A stretch of DNA of 38,682 nucleotides from Acidobacteriota bacterium (GTDB lineage: Bacteria > Acidobacteriota > Vicinamibacteria > Vicinamibacterales > UBA2999): positions 1 through 38,682 of the forward strand of contig QHWQ01000096.1 of assembly GCA_003222635.1 (NCBI GenBank). The letters run 5' to 3'. Below are positions 15,852-23,092 of this stretch, piece after piece; within the stretch, counting starts at the first letter, position 1; each line of letters opens with the position of its first letter. The translations under genes and the position numbers were made by a program. The notes beneath the pieces are model-generated. The model made no database searches. It saw only the letters and a list, made by a program, of their open reading frames with translations, and was not told where the DNA came from.

Positions 15852-17528
15852 TCACCGCGCGAGGTGGAACGCGCCATCGACGCCGAGCGACGACACCGGG
15901 ATGGACGTCGCCTCCGCGCCGTCCATCGGGAACGTCCAGCCGACGAGCGGCAGCGACGCGAACATCCGCTCGAAGGCCGGCAACGGCTCCGGCGCCGCGA
16001 AGATCAGGAAGTGCTCGCGGCCGCCCACGCTGGTCACGGTCCAATACAGCGGCGTCTTACCTCCCGCCGGCAACCTGACCGGATTGCCCGCCGGGATCGG
16101 ATTGGCGATCTTCTGATTCGGCAGCGGGAACAGCAGGTAGGACTCGCCGTTGTCGTCTTCGTTGACGATGTAGACGTGCGCGGGCTTGGACACTTGAATT
16201 TGCAGCATCAGACGGTCGCCCGGCGCGACGCGATCGCCCGGCCGAAGCTTCGCCGAACGAGCGCCTGACACGCGATAGAGGCCGGCGTCGATGCTGTAGG
16301 TCGCGGCGCTTGCTGTGGGCGCCGCGGCGGCCGGCGATACGGCGGCCGCAACGGTCGGCGGTGCCGCGGGAGCCGTCCATGCACGCGTCGCAAGCCAGTA
16401 CGCCGGTGCGCCGATCACGATCCCCGCGATGATCGCGGCGACCGCCAGCGAGAGGGTACGCGGCGAATCGGGGATCTCTTCGTAGGGCGTTCCAAGAAAG
16501 CTCGCCAGCGCGCGCTCGAACGCGCCCGCGCTCTGAAACCGCTGATGCGGATCCAGATCCAGCGCACGCTCGATCACGCTCACGAACTCGTCCGGCAGCT
16601 CCGGCCGCAGATCGCGCAGATGCGTGCGGATGTCTTTGCCATGCGCCTCGTCGATCGCCGCTCGCGTCTCGCCTTCGACCGGATAGCGGTTCGTGACGAG
16701 ATGGAACAGCAGGACGCCCAGGCTGTAGACATCCGCGGCCTTCGTGCGCCGCGCGCCCGCGAACACCTCCGGGGCCACATACAGGGGTGTGCCGGCGAAG
16801 TCGGCGATCCCGCCGGTGGACGCGCGCAGGATGTCCTGACCGAGATCCTTACCGGCGCCGAAGTCCATGAGGACGGTGCGGCCGCCCTCCTCGCGCATCA
16901 CGTTGTGGGCTTTGATGTCGCCGTGCAGGAGACCGGCGCGATGCACGGCCGCGACCGCGCGGCACAGATCCAGACCGATGTTGGCGGCCTCGCGCGCGCC
17001 GAACATCCCCTGCCGCTGCAGCAGATCTTCGAGCGTGGTTCCGCGCACCAGCTCCATCCACAGGCCGACGCGCCCTTCCACCTGATCGGCGCCGTAGACG
17101 GTGACGACGTTGGTGTGGCGCACGCGTGCCAGCAGGCGGGCTTCCTTGAGCACGCGTGAGACGTTGGACGGGCCGTCGTCGTGGCGCATCAGCTTCAGCG
17201 CGATGTCGCACTGCAGCTTGGTGTCATGGGCCCGGTAGACATCGCCGAACGAGCCGCCGCCGATACGGCCGAGGATCAGGAAGTGCGCCCAGGTGCGCGG
17301 CTCGGAGTCGCGTCGATCGTCGGGATCGACGGTTGTTTCGTTGCTCGGGTTGCTCTCCAGCGCCTCCTGATGAAACTGCGCGATCTTTTCCAGCACCCGC
17401 AGCTCGTCGAGGACCCCGCTCTCGTTGCTGGCGACCTTCCCCGCGAGCTGTTCCCACTCGATCAGCGCACCGTCGCTGATCGAGGAGGCGACCGTGTCCA
17501 GCACGTTCGTGTCACGACCGTCTGACAA
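15852..17528 (-). CDS. Membrane Ser/Thr protein kinase with C-terminal DUF4384-like domain
   Basis: Hanks-type kinase of 558 residues. The N-terminal leader is acidic and helical. The kinase domain (about 83-345) has the glycine loop GRIGGGSFGDVY, ATP-binding lysine K112 (ALKLM), the catalytic loop HGDIKAHNV with D204, DFG at 222-224, and APE at 252-254. All catalytic residues are intact, though the loop reads HGD where RD kinases have HRD. One membrane helix (about 360-381) and an alanine/proline linker lead to an outer domain resembling DUF4384 (ISRVSGARSAK... region with VYIVNEDDNGESYLLFP). The start is TTG, overlapping the sigma-factor gene by 17 bp. The overlap suggests that the kinase acts on, or with, that sigma factor. 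Confidence 0.9.
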   Translation of the reverse strand: MSDGRDTNVLDTVASSISDGALIEWEQLAGKVASNESGVLDELRVLEKIAQFHQEALESNPSNETTVDPDDRRDSEPRTWAHFLILGRIGGGSFGDVYRAHDTKLQCDIALKLMRHDDGPSNVSRVLKEARLLARVRHTNVVTVYGADQVEGRVGLWMELVRGTTLEDLLQRQGMFGAREAANIGLDLCRAVAAVHRAGLLHGDIKAHNVMREEGGRTVLMDFGAGKDLGQDILRASTGGIADFAGTPLYVAPEVFAGARRTKAADVYSLGVLLFHLVTNRYPVEGETRAAIDEAHGKDIRTHLRDLRPELPDEFVSVIERALDLDPHQRFQSAGAFERALASFLGTPYEEIPDSPRTLSLAVAAIIAGIVIGAPAYWLATRAWTAPAAPPTVAAAVSPAAAAPTASAATYSIDAGLYRVSGARSAKLRPGDRVAPGDRLMLQIQVSKPAHVYIVNEDDNGESYLLFPLPNQKIANPIPAGNPVRLPAGGKTPLYWTVTSVGGREHFLIFAAPEPLPAFERMFASLPLVGWTFPMDGAEATSIPVSSLGVDGAFHLAR

Positions 17529-18177
17529 TGGCCATCTCTTTCGCGAGCTTGACGAGCGCGCGGCTTACCGCGACGTGCGCGGCCGCGACCGTCGGTTTTC
17601 CGAGCGCGCGCGCCACCTCTGGATAGGAATATCCAAGCTCGATGCGGGCAATGATCGCCTCGCGATCCGGCGCCTTCAGGCGCAGCAGGGCCGCCTCGTA
17701 GCGCTCGCGCGCCTGGACGCCGATGGCCAGCTCGAAGGGCGACGGCCCCTCGTCCGGACGGTCGGAGGCGAGCGCGTCGGTCGGCCGGCGTTTGGCCCAG
17801 CGGATCTGATCGCAGATCCGGTTGTGCAGCGAGGTGCGGAGGAACGCCTGGAAGGCGCCGTCATGCCGCGGCTCGAACGTGCCGAGGCGCTGCACGACCT
17901 GCGCGAGGGTCTCTTGCACGATGTCGACCGTCTCCATCGCGCCGGCGCGCGCCCACTGTGGCAGGCGGCCATGCGCCCATTTCTGGAGGCGCGGGAGGTA
18001 GCGGGTGCACAGGTCGTTGAGCGCGAGCTCGTCGCCGGCCCGGGCGCGGGCGAGCAACTCCACGGACGTCAAGGCGTTGGTCACCTTGATCGGCGCCGCC
18101 TTTCGAGAGCCCGTGCGTGAAGACACGTAGTCGGCCATGAACGAACCCGGCGCGAATGTCAGAGTTGTGGCGCTCAT
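17512..18177 (-). CDS. ECF-type RNA polymerase sigma factor
   Basis: A 221-residue sigma-70 family protein with only regions 2 and 4. Region 2 is LLARARAGDELALNDLCTRYLPRLQKWAHG through DIVQETLAQVVQRLGTFEP to AFLRTSLHNRICDQIRWAKRR (residues about 41-130). Region 4 is LLRLKAPDREAIIARIELGYSYPEVARALGKPTVAAAHVAVSRALVKLAKEM (about 165-215). In region 2.2, T83 and V84 (METVDIVQET) occupy the site where many ECF factors carry acidic residues. No anti-sigma factor gene adjoins it; a Ser/Thr kinase overlaps its end instead. AGGAG lies ten bases before the ATG, inside the palindrome ACAGGA-AC-TCCTGT (18181-18194). The next ATG is at codon 14. Likely targets are its own operon and the divergent protease operon, by inference. 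Confidence 0.88.
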   Translation of the reverse strand: MSATTLTFAPGSFMADYVSSRTGSRKAAPIKVTNALTSVELLARARAGDELALNDLCTRYLPRLQKWAHGRLPQWARAGAMETVDIVQETLAQVVQRLGTFEPRHDGAFQAFLRTSLHNRICDQIRWAKRRPTDALASDRPDEGPSPFELAIGVQARERYEAALLRLKAPDREAIIARIELGYSYPEVARALGKPTVAAAHVAVSRALVKLAKEMAIVRRS

Positions 18178-18406: not shown

Positions 18407-19576
18407 ATGGCGAACCGACCCTGGACTGTTCTCGTGTACATCGTCGCTGACGACGATCGACAACCGGGTGCGGGGCACCCGTCGTTGAACAAGATCGCGG
18501 CCGCTCAGATCGCCGAGCTCTCGAAGACGGCTCGCGAAATGAAGGGACAACCGCTTGTCCTCACCCAGGTCGACTTCACCAACGCTCGTCCGAAGCAGTG
18601 CGTGTTCCCGGACGACTCCTCTGCTGACGCGGCCCGCATCTGTACACCGATTGAAAAGGAGCCGAATTCGGCGAGTCGACGGACCATCGGTGACTTCTTC
18701 AAGTGGGCGGCCGGAGTGCTTCGCGAAAAGGGCATCCAGAACAGCAGGTTTGCGGTCATCTTCTGGGGGCATGCCGCGGGGCCTGCCGGCCTGTTCCGCG
18801 ATCCGGCTCCGGCGAGCACGAATCCTTCGTTGAAGTTGCCCGACCTGAGACGCGCGCTGCAGGACGGTCTGCAATATCTCGGCGCGCGATATTTCGACGT
18901 GGTGATGTTCCAGGACTGCTGGACGAGCTCGCTCGAGGTCGTCTACGAACTGAAGGACGTCGCACGCTACATGGTTGCGTCGCAGGAGATCATCGCGCCG
19001 ATCGAAAAGATCTGGCCGTACACGCTCCTGTTTGAAGAGCTCCTCAAGCCAACATCTCCAAGTCTCGAGATGCTCGACGCGATCGTGGGCCGTCTCGCCG
19101 ATCAGTACGAGAGAAAGATTGCCTTCAGCGGTCTCACGCTGGACGCAGCACCGGGCCTCGCTCTTCCGCTCGCGCGCCTGACCGCCGCCTTGCAGTCGTT
19201 GACGGACGACGAGCGCGAGGCGAGCCGACGGATGATGAGGGAGATGGCCGGTGGCGATCCCGCTCTCATCGACGTTCGCGCGTTCTGCAAGCGGCTGCGC
19301 GATGCGGACATCGTGAAGCAGCAGGCGCTTGCTCTCGAACGCGTCGCCAACACGCTGGTTCGAGCCAGCACCGCGCAAGACGGATCGGGCCTAAGGGGTG
19401 TCAGCCTTTTCCACAGTCCGCCGGATAACGAACGAGACAAGGACGAGAAGAAATCCGTGTTCGCTGATTCAGTGCTGATGTTCGATTACAACGAACTTCA
19501 GCTGAGCGAAGACACAGAAGGTGCCGGAGCAAACTGGAGCGAGGTTGCGTTCGAGAACCGATTCGTCGTCGTGTGA
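18407..19576 (+). CDS. C11-family (clostripain-like) cysteine peptidase
   Basis: A 389-residue clan CD (caspase-fold) protease. The start WTVLVYIVADDD matches the first strand of the C11 family. The catalytic histidine is H122 in FAVIFWGHAAG, and the catalytic cysteine is C171 in FDVVMFQDCWTSSLEVVYEL, equivalent to the WGHG and DACLM-type motifs of clostripain relatives. No signal peptide or membrane segment is visible, so a cytoplasmic location is likely. The C-terminal part (about 210-389) contains helices and ends with an acidic tail. A good ribosome-binding site (AAGGAGG) precedes the ATG. It is the first gene of the rightward operon opposite the sigma/kinase pair, followed by a small protein and a TPR-CHAT protein. 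C11 enzymes commonly cleave after arginine or lysine, but the target here is unknown. Confidence 0.86.
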   Translation: MANRPWTVLVYIVADDDRQPGAGHPSLNKIAAAQIAELSKTAREMKGQPLVLTQVDFTNARPKQCVFPDDSSADAARICTPIEKEPNSASRRTIGDFFKWAAGVLREKGIQNSRFAVIFWGHAAGPAGLFRDPAPASTNPSLKLPDLRRALQDGLQYLGARYFDVVMFQDCWTSSLEVVYELKDVARYMVASQEIIAPIEKIWPYTLLFEELLKPTSPSLEMLDAIVGRLADQYERKIAFSGLTLDAAPGLALPLARLTAALQSLTDDEREASRRMMREMAGGDPALIDVRAFCKRLRDADIVKQQALALERVANTLVRASTAQDGSGLRGVSLFHSPPDNERDKDEKKSVFADSVLMFDYNELQLSEDTEGAGANWSEVAFENRFVVV

Positions 19577-19609
19577 GGTTTTGTCGTTTATCAAAGACGG
19601 GAGGGCTGT

Positions 19610-19774
19610 ATGGCCGTGGATCCGAAAACAGGTGGTCTTGGCATTCCGCCGAAGGCATTAAACGAGCTGGCCGATGCGTTCACGGTGATCGCCAAAATCT
19701 TCAGGAAAATCGCGGCGGAGCAACCGTCACCCGAAGAGGCTCCGGTAGGCGCTGGCCTCAAGAAGCATCCGTAG
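19610..19774 (+). CDS. 54-residue small protein between two caspase-fold proteases
   Basis: A short open frame not resembling any family I know. A GGGAGGG ribosome-binding site lies six bases before the ATG, and the gap after the C11 gene is 33 bases. The peptide begins MAVDPKTGGLGIPPKAL. It has one probable amphipathic helix (residues about 15-36, ELADAFTVIAKIFRKIA) and an acidic, proline-containing tail ending in LKKHP. There is no cysteine and no signal peptide. Codon use is in keeping with its neighbours, and the stop is 21 bases before the CHAT gene start. Position suggests a partner, inhibitor or substrate of one of the proteases. Its lysines and arginines (for example in IFRKIA) would be candidate C11 sites. 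This role is inference only. Confidence 0.7.
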   Translation: MAVDPKTGGLGIPPKALNELADAFTVIAKIFRKIAAEQPSPEEAPVGAGLKKHP

Positions 19775-19795
19775 CGTCATGACCGAGGCGTGCAG

Positions 19796-22700
19796 ATGAC
19801 GCGACCGCGTGCCGTCCTGCGTGCCTCGATTGTCCTCCTCTCGATCTGGGTTTCCCCGGAACAGGCAGCTCCCCAGGGCGACTGCGATCGTGCAAGCACT
19901 ACAGCGATCTTGCAGTGCCTCCTCGAGAATGGCCGGTACGCGGAAGCCGAGGATACGGCACGCCGCTGGCGTGCATCGGTCACCCAGCAGTTTGGAAACG
20001 AATCGGTAGACACCGCTGAAGTCTCGGATTACCTCGTGAAGGCGCTCGTCGGGGGAGGAAAAGGGGGACAGCCCGCGACGCTCGCGCTCGCTGATTCCGC
20101 CGTCAAGATAAGGATACGTCTACGATCCGGGACATCGTCATTGGACGTGTCGCTCGACAACCTGGCGACGGTGTACGTCGAGCATACCTTGGACGGCCTT
20201 GCGCAAGCACTCCTTTCCCAGGAACGTTTCAATGAGGCAAAGAGCGCCCTTGAGCGTTCCCGAACCATTCGTGAACGTAAGAAGAGCTCGTTGCCCGCGC
20301 TCGCACGAACGCTGGCCCTCACAGCGTTGCTCCACAAATACGACGGCCAGTACGCGACAGGCCTCGGCCTCACCGAAAATGCGCTGACACTCCTGAACGC
20401 TGCGGGCCCCCTCCACCCGCATCGATCGACCACGCTGCAAATTCGCGGCGATCTCCTTTTTCTGTCAGGCGACATTGCTGGTGCCGAACGTGCGTGGACC
20501 GATGCCCTTGACGTCGCGCAACGCACGGTGGGCCTGGAACATCCGCTCACGCTGCTGCTCATGCGTGAGCTGGCAGCCTCGGCCAAGGCGGCCGGGAATT
20601 TGCCGCGCGCACGGCAACTGCTCGAAACGGTGGCAGGCCTCGCGAAATCCGCTCTGGCGCGATGTCACCCGGAAACAACCTACGAGTTGAACGACCTGGC
20701 GAATCTGCTCGAGTACGACGGCGACTATCGGCGTTCACGGGCGCTCTACACGGAAGCGCTGTCCATCTCCGAAGAGTGTTTCGGCCGCAGTCATTCGCAA
20801 ACCGCGACGATCGTCCACAACCAGGCAGTCCTGTCGCTGACCACAGGCGATTACGCCGAAGCTCAGCGACTCGAACAACGTGCCCTGCGCATATGGTCGA
20901 CGAATCTCGGCGCCAGGCATCCGTACATCGCGCGTGTCCTGGACGTGCTGGCGGAGATCGCATCCGCGAGAGGAGATGTCGCGGCCGCGGAGAACTTCTA
21001 TAAGCGAGCCCTGGCCATCCGGCAGAAAGCCGGCGGCCCGGATTCTCCCGACGTCGCGTGGACGCTCACCAACCTGGCAACGGTCGCATACGCGGCGGGC
21101 CAGACACGCGTCGCTCTGGATCGCGTCAATGCGGCCACGGCCATCTACGACCGGAACGTGGGCGAGCAGCCTGACCATCGCGCTAACGCCTTTGTGCTTC
21201 GCGGCAAGGCGCTCTTGCGGCGTGGCGAATTCCCGCCGGCGCGCGACAGCTTCAACAGCGCGATAAATGAACGGACCCGCGTCTTCGGAGCGGCACATCC
21301 GCTCACCGCAAGCGCCCGCGCCGATCTCGCGCTCAGCGAGTTCGCTCTCGGATCCGTCAACACTGGCGCTGAGGATGCGCTCGCAGCGGAGCAGGTCGGC
21401 CGCGATCAACTGCGCTTCACGATCCGGTACATGCCGGAGCGTCAGGCGATGGCGTATGCGGCCGCGCGGCCGCGCGGTCTCGATCTGGCGCTGTCGATGG
21501 CAGTCGTTGAGCGATCCCTCGATCCCGCGCGTCTGCTGGACGCTGCAATCCGATCACGCGGTGTCATTCTTGACGAACTCGCGGGAAGAGCTCAATCCGC
21601 CTCTGGTGGCGGGGACCCAGCGCTGGCAGTGCTCGATACCGCCGTGCTCGCGGCCCGCCAGCGATTCGCCACGTTAATGGTGCGCAGTCTCGACGGCGCC
21701 GATGCCGCATCCACGCGGCTTCTCGAGGACGCTCGCCAACAGAAGGAGGATGCGGAGCGGGCGCTCGCGGAACGGAGCGCTGCGGCGAGGGAAGAAACGC
21801 AGCGTGCACAGATCGGGCTCGACGAGGTGCGACGTGCGCTGCCTGCCGGGTCAGCCCTCGTGTCCTTTGTCCGATACGAACGCACGTCGGTCCTGATGCG
21901 ATCGTCACGTCCCACAGTCACGACGAGTGCGTCATACGCAGCCTTCATCACACGTGCGGAGAGCGACGAGGTCCGCTTCATCCCGCTCGGCTCCGCTTCA
22001 TCGCTCGAGCGTCTCGTCGACGCGTGGCGCGCCGAGGCCGGCGGACGCTCGATCGCGACTGGCCTGACGCCGCGCGACGCGGAGCGACGGTACCGAGCGG
22101 CTGCGGCGGCGCTGCGCGCCCGCATCTGGGATCCGCTCGACGCATCATTGGCAGGCGCAACGCGAATCTTCATCGTCCCGGACGCCTCGTTGAATCTCGT
22201 CACCTTCGCCGCGTTTCCCGCGGCGCGTGGCTATCTCGTGGAAACCGGCGTAAGCCTTCACTACCTGACGACGGAACGTGATCTCGTTCGCACGTCCGGA
22301 CCGTCTGGACAGGGACTGCTTGCGCTCGGCGGCCCGTCGTTCGGTGGTGAGACGACAACGCCGCCAGCCGCGGCGGCTCGCGGCTCTGGCTGCGGATCCA
22401 TCGGATCGCTCCACTTTGACGATCTGCCCGGGACCCGCGCCGAAGTGCACGATATCGCGAGCATCTGGGGTAATCCACGCGACGTCGTCGTGCTGAGTGG
22501 CCGCGCCGCAACCAAAGCCGCGCTCACCAGCGCCATCGCGGGGCATCGCGTTGTGCATCTCGCCACGCACGGCTTCTTTCTTAGACCCGAGTGCGAGGCT
22601 GCCCTTCCCACGACGCGTGGTGTCGGAGGTCTCATCAGCGGACGCGCACCCGCAGCCGTCGACAATCCGCTGCTGCTCTCGGGACTTGCTCTCGCCGGAG

Positions 22701-23092
22701 TCAATGCGCTGTCGGGGGCGCGCCAAAGCGACGGCATCCTCAACGCCGAAGAGATCGCCGGACTCAACCTGCAGGGCACCGAGTGGGCGGTCTTGTCCGC
22801 GTGCGACACGGGACTCGGTCAGATCACGGCGGGCGAAGGCGTGTTCGGTCTCCGCCGGGCGCTGCAAATTGCCGGCGTGCACACCATCATCATGAGCCTC
22901 TGGTCAGTCGAAGATCAGGCGACGCGCGAGTGGATGAAGGCGCTTTACGAAGCGCGCCTCGCGCAACGCCTCGACACGCCCGGCGCCGTGCGCGCAGCGA
23001 GCCTGCAGACGCTCCGGCAGCGGCGCGCGAAGGGCCAGAGCACGCATCCGTTCTACTGGGCCGCGTTCGTCGCCGCCGGTGACTGGCGCTAG
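19796..23092 (+). CDS. Exported TPR-CHAT protein (caspase-fold peptidase)
   Basis: A 1098-residue protein with three parts. An N-terminal signal-peptide-like stretch (MTRPRAVLRASIVLLSIWVS, then AAPQG) predicts export. About 600 residues of tetratricopeptide repeats follow, partly of the 42-residue kinesin-light-chain type (for example SPDVAWTLTNLATVAYAAG). After a coiled-coil-like A/E/R-rich segment (about 625-680) comes the C-terminal CHAT domain (about 790-1098). Its catalytic pair is H925 (VVHLATHGFF) and C1003 (VLSACDTGLG), with GEGVFGLRRALQIAGV after it. The ATG at 19796 has GAGG seven bases upstream; a GTG two codons earlier is poorly placed. CHAT proteins are peptidases of the caspase clan, often activated through their repeat domain. 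The gene ends the operon and overlaps a minus-strand gene by 4 bp. Confidence 0.92.
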   Translation: MTRPRAVLRASIVLLSIWVSPEQAAPQGDCDRASTTAILQCLLENGRYAEAEDTARRWRASVTQQFGNESVDTAEVSDYLVKALVGGGKGGQPATLALADSAVKIRIRLRSGTSSLDVSLDNLATVYVEHTLDGLAQALLSQERFNEAKSALERSRTIRERKKSSLPALARTLALTALLHKYDGQYATGLGLTENALTLLNAAGPLHPHRSTTLQIRGDLLFLSGDIAGAERAWTDALDVAQRTVGLEHPLTLLLMRELAASAKAAGNLPRARQLLETVAGLAKSALARCHPETTYELNDLANLLEYDGDYRRSRALYTEALSISEECFGRSHSQTATIVHNQAVLSLTTGDYAEAQRLEQRALRIWSTNLGARHPYIARVLDVLAEIASARGDVAAAENFYKRALAIRQKAGGPDSPDVAWTLTNLATVAYAAGQTRVALDRVNAATAIYDRNVGEQPDHRANAFVLRGKALLRRGEFPPARDSFNSAINERTRVFGAAHPLTASARADLALSEFALGSVNTGAEDALAAEQVGRDQLRFTIRYMPERQAMAYAAARPRGLDLALSMAVVERSLDPARLLDAAIRSRGVILDELAGRAQSASGGGDPALAVLDTAVLAARQRFATLMVRSLDGADAASTRLLEDARQQKEDAERALAERSAAAREETQRAQIGLDEVRRALPAGSALVSFVRYERTSVLMRSSRPTVTTSASYAAFITRAESDEVRFIPLGSASSLERLVDAWRAEAGGRSIATGLTPRDAERRYRAAAAALRARIWDPLDASLAGATRIFIVPDASLNLVTFAAFPAARGYLVETGVSLHYLTTERDLVRTSGPSGQGLLALGGPSFGGETTTPPAAAARGSGCGSIGSLHFDDLPGTRAEVHDIASIWGNPRDVVVLSGRAATKAALTSAIAGHRVVHLATHGFFLRPECEAALPTTRGVGGLISGRAPAAVDNPLLLSGLALAGVNALSGARQSDGILNAEEIAGLNLQGTEWAVLSACDTGLGQITAGEGVFGLRRALQIAGVHTIIMSLWSVEDQATREWMKALYEARLAQRLDTPGAVRAASLQTLRQRRAKGQSTHPFYWAAFVAAGDWR

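Follow-up and report, generated by a model that had tools for sequence, protein, structure and literature searches.

Zymogens are a familiar case of proteases encoded jointly with a peptide of their own that can be cleaved or that blocks them. In clostripain, access to the pocket is gated by a linker that contains Arg sites and is excised when the enzyme is activated (PMC11296011); the Arg specificity of clostripain and of PmC11 is ascribed to an Asp located two residues before the catalytic Cys (PMC11296011). In Craspase, the TPR-CHAT protease Csx29 cuts Csx30 and frees its sigma factor (PMC10028731). The locus described here combines a C11 peptidase, a TPR-CHAT protease and an ECF sigma factor, with a small ORF lying between the two protease genes.

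The window, that is, the whole stretch of 38,682 nucleotides of a soil bacterium that was analysed, carries on the minus strand a gene for a Ser/Thr protein kinase with a DUF4384 domain (15852..17528; Pfam Pkinase 5.7e-45, DUF4384 1.6e-11) and a gene for an ECF-type sigma factor (17512..18177; Pfam Sigma70_r2/r4_2, and above the cut-off of the NCBIfam sigma70-ECF model), the position of which is conserved in relatives. Divergent from these two genes, on the plus strand, are found those encoding a 389-aa C11 (clostripain-family) peptidase without a C-terminal tail (18407..19576; PF03415, 9.6e-18), the small ORF (19610..19774) and a TPR-CHAT protease (19796..23092; Pfam CHAT 7.7e-63, and TPR_12), whose CHAT His and Cys are invariant across nine aligned orthologues. 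The order kinase-sigma-C11-CHAT is found as well in L051, L053, L054, L055 and L064, with the kinase gene in the orthologous position in all five and the CHAT gene of L064 cut at the contig end. A search with the CHAT-domain alignment as query rendered 80 CHAT loci, among which, in the stretches examined, a C11 match was present only in L065, L066, L078 and L101; these duplicate L051, L053, L055 and L054, respectively, and were counted once, as was L019, which is repeated by L221. No match was found when the genome contigs were searched with the C11 as query. Some other arrangements were also observed. An ORF that by eye looks subtilase-like is located upstream of a close CHAT orthologue (L057:6136-7620), C11 and TPR-CHAT genes are convergent rather than co-directional in L207 (6240-7580 and 2473-6195), and arrays of 26 and 28 copies of an 18-nt unit are present on the strand opposite the CHAT gene in L105 (4998-5466) and L110 (2271-2785), respectively, which are best read as (ALWADT)n, a unit without Lys or Arg.

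The TPR-CHAT protein of the window has a hydrophobic N-terminal segment (signal or anchor), as do 13 of the 13 TPR-CHAT proteins of the set that were examined, whereas the C11 protein begins directly in its catalytic domain, so that the two proteases may act in different compartments or at the membrane.

The ORF at 19610-19774 has no internal stop and translates into a product of 54 aa, MAVDPKTGGLGIPPKALNELADAFTVIAKIFRKIAAEQPSPEEAPVGAGLKKHP. Its ATG lies 33 bases past the C11 TGA stop (19574..19576, plus strand) and its own stop is 21 bases upstream of the TPR-CHAT ATG at 19796 (the ORF-finding program placed that start at a GTG at 19790), in agreement with the first-pass annotation. The ribosome-binding site GGGAGGG assigned to it earlier is indeed present (19599..19605, plus strand), but it is separated from the ATG by four bases (five from the GGAGG core) and not by six. 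The small ORF is in the same frame as the C11 gene, the two starts being 401 codons apart (18407 to 19610), an agreement expected by chance in 1 of 3 cases. Between both coding sequences there are only the C11 TGA, which is the sole in-frame stop, and 11 sense codons; the open frame that contains the ORF is 65 codons long. This arrangement would fit an origin as a relic or by fission.

Several features of the small ORF are those of a translated gene. Its ribosome-binding site is predicted to pair with the 16S tail with an energy of -10.8 kcal/mol, a value matched by 2.1% of 143 gene starts and by 0.36% of 552 spurious ORFs. Codon usage was scored after training on 147 long genes of the same genome (from the window and 20 further stretches), and the log-odds of the small ORF, 0.17, lies at the 47th percentile of the scores that those genes have over their first 54 codons, the mean of which is 0.14; spurious ORFs inside genes average -0.27, and 3.3% of the 552 spurious ORFs attain the score of the small ORF. 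The length of the ORF alone is weak evidence, since an ORF of at least 54 aa appeared in 6.8% of the shuffles of the 219-base gap between the C11 and CHAT genes. AlphaFold2, run on the single sequence, predicts one helix spanning residues 14-37 with block pLDDT up to 97, less certain ends and a mean pLDDT of 77, which bears out the earlier description of the protein as having one helix; a model of the C11 fused to the small ORF product was uninformative, with a pLDDT of 48. This ORF is likely a translated gene, and its translation, codon score, predicted helix and the complementarity between tails and small ORFs described below are the grounds for proposing it as a detached partner of the C11.

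A search with the C11 alignment rendered matches in 39 of 396 genomes of the phylum and in 19 of 193 genomes of the class. After the addition of 40 further C11 neighbourhoods, 47 C11 proteins were counted, 27 of which adjoin a TPR-CHAT gene and 20 of which do not; L019 and L064 were placed among the 27 on account of a TPR frame that runs into the end of the contig and is truncated there, and a number of weak, truncated or extra rows were left out of the set (G349, G298:C36, G269, G537, G491, G356, G158, G112, G069:C196 and G250:C21). The C11 proteins encoded beside TPR-CHAT (27 loci) usually extend into a C-terminal tail, and in many cases this tail contains short tandem repeats. When an array was defined as tandem units of 4-12 residues with a score of at least 11, one was found in 16 of the 27 CHAT-adjacent C11 proteins, in or after the protease domain, and in 6 of the 20 others, a count that excludes L204 (FTPPYVK, score 9), L215 (score 7) and L019 (36-residue repeats, beyond the period limit). 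Examples of the units are DFPELGTK, RFADFG, HWNKDNP, KAGQGNPE, VPPYDVDNK and REVGG and, away from CHAT, KLAGQEGS and LGGSASSTR. Except in close pairs, units from different loci are unrelated in sequence. A Lys or Arg is nevertheless present in the unit of 21 of the 22 arrays, versus 12.8 expected (simulation, P 8e-5, an optimistic value because it includes the close pairs L193/L195, L194/L199 and L218/L219, which are not independent). In the Lys/Arg columns of the arrays 139 positions keep the consensus, with six K/R swaps, two changes to His and one to Gln, and a [VFI]KN motif follows the repeats in several tails that are unrelated to one another. No description of C11 tails with tandem repeats beside TPR-CHAT was found in the open-licence literature by title or abstract. 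With regard to C11 proteins away from CHAT, the sole array without Lys or Arg is the highly acidic repeat (EDEEADDEG) of a 977-aa C11 that is not encoded beside CHAT (L205:6338-9271), and long arrays, KLAGQEGS and LGGSASSTR being examples, are present in the C11 proteins of L193, L194, L195, L199 and L200, beside which no CHAT gene was found in the stretches covered (L199 and L200 are located at contig ends). The C11 gene adjoins that of a kinase in L193 and in L194.

The C11 protein of the window, with no residues past the C11 model, stops at the catalytic domain, as do those of L054 and L064 (tails of 0-8 residues in the three), and a tandem array was sought without success both in the window C11 protein and in the window DNA, the small ORF included. 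In each of these three loci a small ORF with a ribosome-binding site lies between the C11 and CHAT genes, with 54 codons in the window, 98 in L054 and 111 in L064, where the protein is made of seven RGIELK copies with flanks and is encoded in a frame different from that of its C11. The three thus belong to a positional class of detached C11 partners, defined by an ORF with a ribosome-binding site located between a tail-less C11 gene and that of a TPR-CHAT. A small ORF with a good ribosome-binding site was found no further than 400 nt past the C11 stop for three of four tail-less C11 proteins versus two of 23 tailed ones (one-sided P 0.013), with the 400-nt limit having been chosen after a shorter zone missed L054; with that shorter zone the figures are two of four and one of 23, respectively (two-sided P 0.049). 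The fourth tail-less C11, that of L223, has an array inside its core and no small ORF. In the two tailed positives, L055 and L197, the open CHAT frame begins before the C11 stop, so that their small ORFs overlap the CHAT frame. L191 and L209 also encode tail-less C11 proteins, in this case away from CHAT, and no convincing partner was found for them.

In a phylogenetic tree, the window C11 is sister (support 100/99) to standalone C11 proteins encoded without CHAT (L004-L006, L008, L009, L016 and L018). A tiny Lys-rich gene adjoins the C11 gene in nine of nine standalone loci, that is, those of the tree members plus L007, which is only partly readable, and L017. Eight of these genes are convergent with that of the C11 and one is co-directional with a strong ribosome-binding site, and eight of their products could be aligned as a family, with PxGMxGKR followed by AKKAAKK repeats. 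As in the window, a gene for a tiny protein is found beside that of a tail-less C11 in the sister clade (L004-L009, L016-L018), although there it is mostly convergent rather than co-directional and its product has no detectable sequence similarity to that of the window ORF.

The first-pass annotation had proposed a comparison with other genomes as a check of the small protein. A homologue search with the 54 residues in viral contigs, plasmids and 193 genomes of the class rendered no detectable relative, and a search of its own genome with the ORF rendered no homologue. A second match in that genome was rejected because it contains two stops. The other matches, also below threshold, were read as chance: those in plasmids, which correspond to kinases (39.5% identity over 38 residues), and those in L013 and L014, which sit within long open frames, and in G024/L015, in a neighbourhood that by eye is aldo-keto-reductase-like. 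To the eye, K-x-GG-L-G and, in L054, MPKQENK suggested a relationship to the Lys-rich microproteins. It received no support from an HMM built on eight of them, which, run against 31,659 ORFs with E up to 1000, found neither the small ORF of the window nor those of L054 and L064. Similarly, the C-terminal GAGLKKHP was considered as a KN motif by eye and was rejected, since 2824 of 5000 shuffles reach its score. The 54-aa ORF is, in summary, an orphan by sequence and, by position, a member of the tail-or-partner pattern, of which no account turned up in the open literature covered. Its earlier description as a real, protease-linked small protein is backed by codon usage, by the ribosome-binding site and by its positional equivalents, although a homologue was not found.

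As for the protease, the window C11 scores 65.3 bits against PF03415 (cut-off 25.8) and 7.3e-06 against the clostripain-related PDB chain 6n9j, and its catalytic dyad is aligned (FWG[H]AAG and FQD[C]WTSS). At the position of the Asp that determines Arg specificity, however, it has Gln (FQDC). The same position is occupied by Arg in the nine C11 proteins of the standalone clade and by Asp in most of the CHAT-paired ones, with Asn in L055 and L223 and His in L202 and L215 as exceptions; where other C11 proteins have DxC at the catalytic Cys, those of the window and of the standalone clade have a shifted motif, QDC or RDC. Since it is the Asp that sets the Arg preference in clostripain, a cleavage preference cannot be assumed for the window enzyme. 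It had been suggested that basic sites in the small protein would suit a C11 protease; this idea fits the family, with Lys or Arg in nearly every array, but not the window C11, with its Gln in place of Asp. The recurrence of Lys or Arg in otherwise free units, together with the K/R swaps, is the trace that would be expected of a basic-P1 protease. Such a reading would apply to the tailed C11 proteins, which mostly keep the Asp, but does not carry over directly to the window pair.

The small ORF sits where the C11 proteins of most relatives have a tail, and the closest clade has a separate Lys-rich protein. The preferred reading, to which we give about an even chance, is that the small ORF is a genuine gene whose product acts as a separate partner of the C11 protease; such a partner would probably be a pseudosubstrate or a substrate, the candidate roles being those of inhibitor, substrate and peptide precursor. 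Tail and partner alike are most simply explained as a peptide travelling with the protease as pseudosubstrate or substrate. The 54-aa partner could fill the substrate cleft of the C11 as a pseudosubstrate and hold the enzyme idle, to be cut or displaced upon activation of the system. The neighbouring TPR-CHAT protease could act as the switch, and the divergent ECF sigma factor and the kinase would control expression. More tentatively, the acidobacterial C11 proteins paired with TPR-CHAT may constitute a class with fast-changing arrays in which every unit holds a basic residue, carried either in cis, in a tail, or in trans, by a tiny gene. The arrays would serve as pseudosubstrates with multiple sites or as signal peptides that are released, with their processing controlled by TPR-CHAT and the ECF sigma factor; the 54-aa protein would be a repeat-less trans member of that class.

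Other explanations have to be weighed against a C11 partner. The small ORF might be a relic, a C11 tail severed by the in-frame TGA, translated or not, whose function has been lost. Its sharing the C11 frame with a single TGA in between, and its lack of homologues, are in line with this, but the ORF has a strong ribosome-binding site positioned for its ATG together with gene-like codon use; moreover, it lacks the tail motif, the tail-less C11 proteins of L054 and L064 terminate at roughly the same place, and the ORF of L064 is out of the C11 frame. We regard a relic as rather unlikely. It can also be the case that the product is a substrate of the TPR-CHAT protease and not of the C11, namely a small regulatory protein, whose target might be the divergent ECF sigma factor, that is cut in the manner of Csx30 by Csx29. 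The types of parts are the same, TPR-CHAT and ECF sigma (PMC10028731), and the small ORF directly precedes the CHAT gene. On the other hand, Csx30 is a 565-aa protein that binds sigma by its N-terminal domain (PMC10028731), whereas the 54-aa single-helix protein is without such a domain, and the predicted export-like N-terminal segment of the TPR-CHAT protein would part it from a cytoplasmic sigma factor. We consider this possibility unlikely.

Finally, the ORF might serve only the translation of TPR-CHAT, by coupling or as a leader ORF, with no importance attached to the sequence of its peptide, or be a chance ORF. The ribosome-binding site of the CHAT start, 21 nt past the ORF stop, is weaker than that of the small ORF (-5.9), and the gap shuffles mentioned above produce ORFs of such length; the codon score and helix prediction are nonetheless gene-like, and most CHAT-paired loci do without such an ORF, so that we consider this explanation quite improbable. 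If the interpretation of the small ORF as a detached C11 partner and of the tails as its counterparts is true, the recurring constraint would be one Lys or Arg per unit in a hypervariable array, housed in a tail or in a separate gene, and such an array would represent a new way of guarding or reading out a bacterial caspase-fold protease.

The locus can be compared with three described systems. With Craspase/CASP (type III-E: Cas7-11, the TPR-CHAT Csx29, Csx30 and CASP-sigma) it shares the presence, within a single locus, of a TPR-CHAT protein and an ECF sigma factor, but the window sigma factor scores 24.7 bits against the type III-E sigma model NF041236 (cut-off 100), the other components in the window are a kinase and a C11 protease, and the size of the small ORF is not that of Csx30. 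PADLOC gave no match for the window C11, small ORF, CHAT or sigma. The EACC2/caspase conflict systems resemble this locus in combining a constant caspase-fold protease with variable partners, an ECF sigma factor and a TPR protein (PMC8195603); they are, however, based on EACC2 (PMC8195603), a domain absent from the Pfam matches of the window. With clostripain, the window has in common the C11 domain, the His/Cys dyad and the idea of a basic peptide carried along with the protease, and differs from it in having Gln where clostripain has the P1-setting Asp; and the peptide, which in clostripain is an internal linker, is encoded here by an ORF of its own or forms a repeat tail at the C-terminus.
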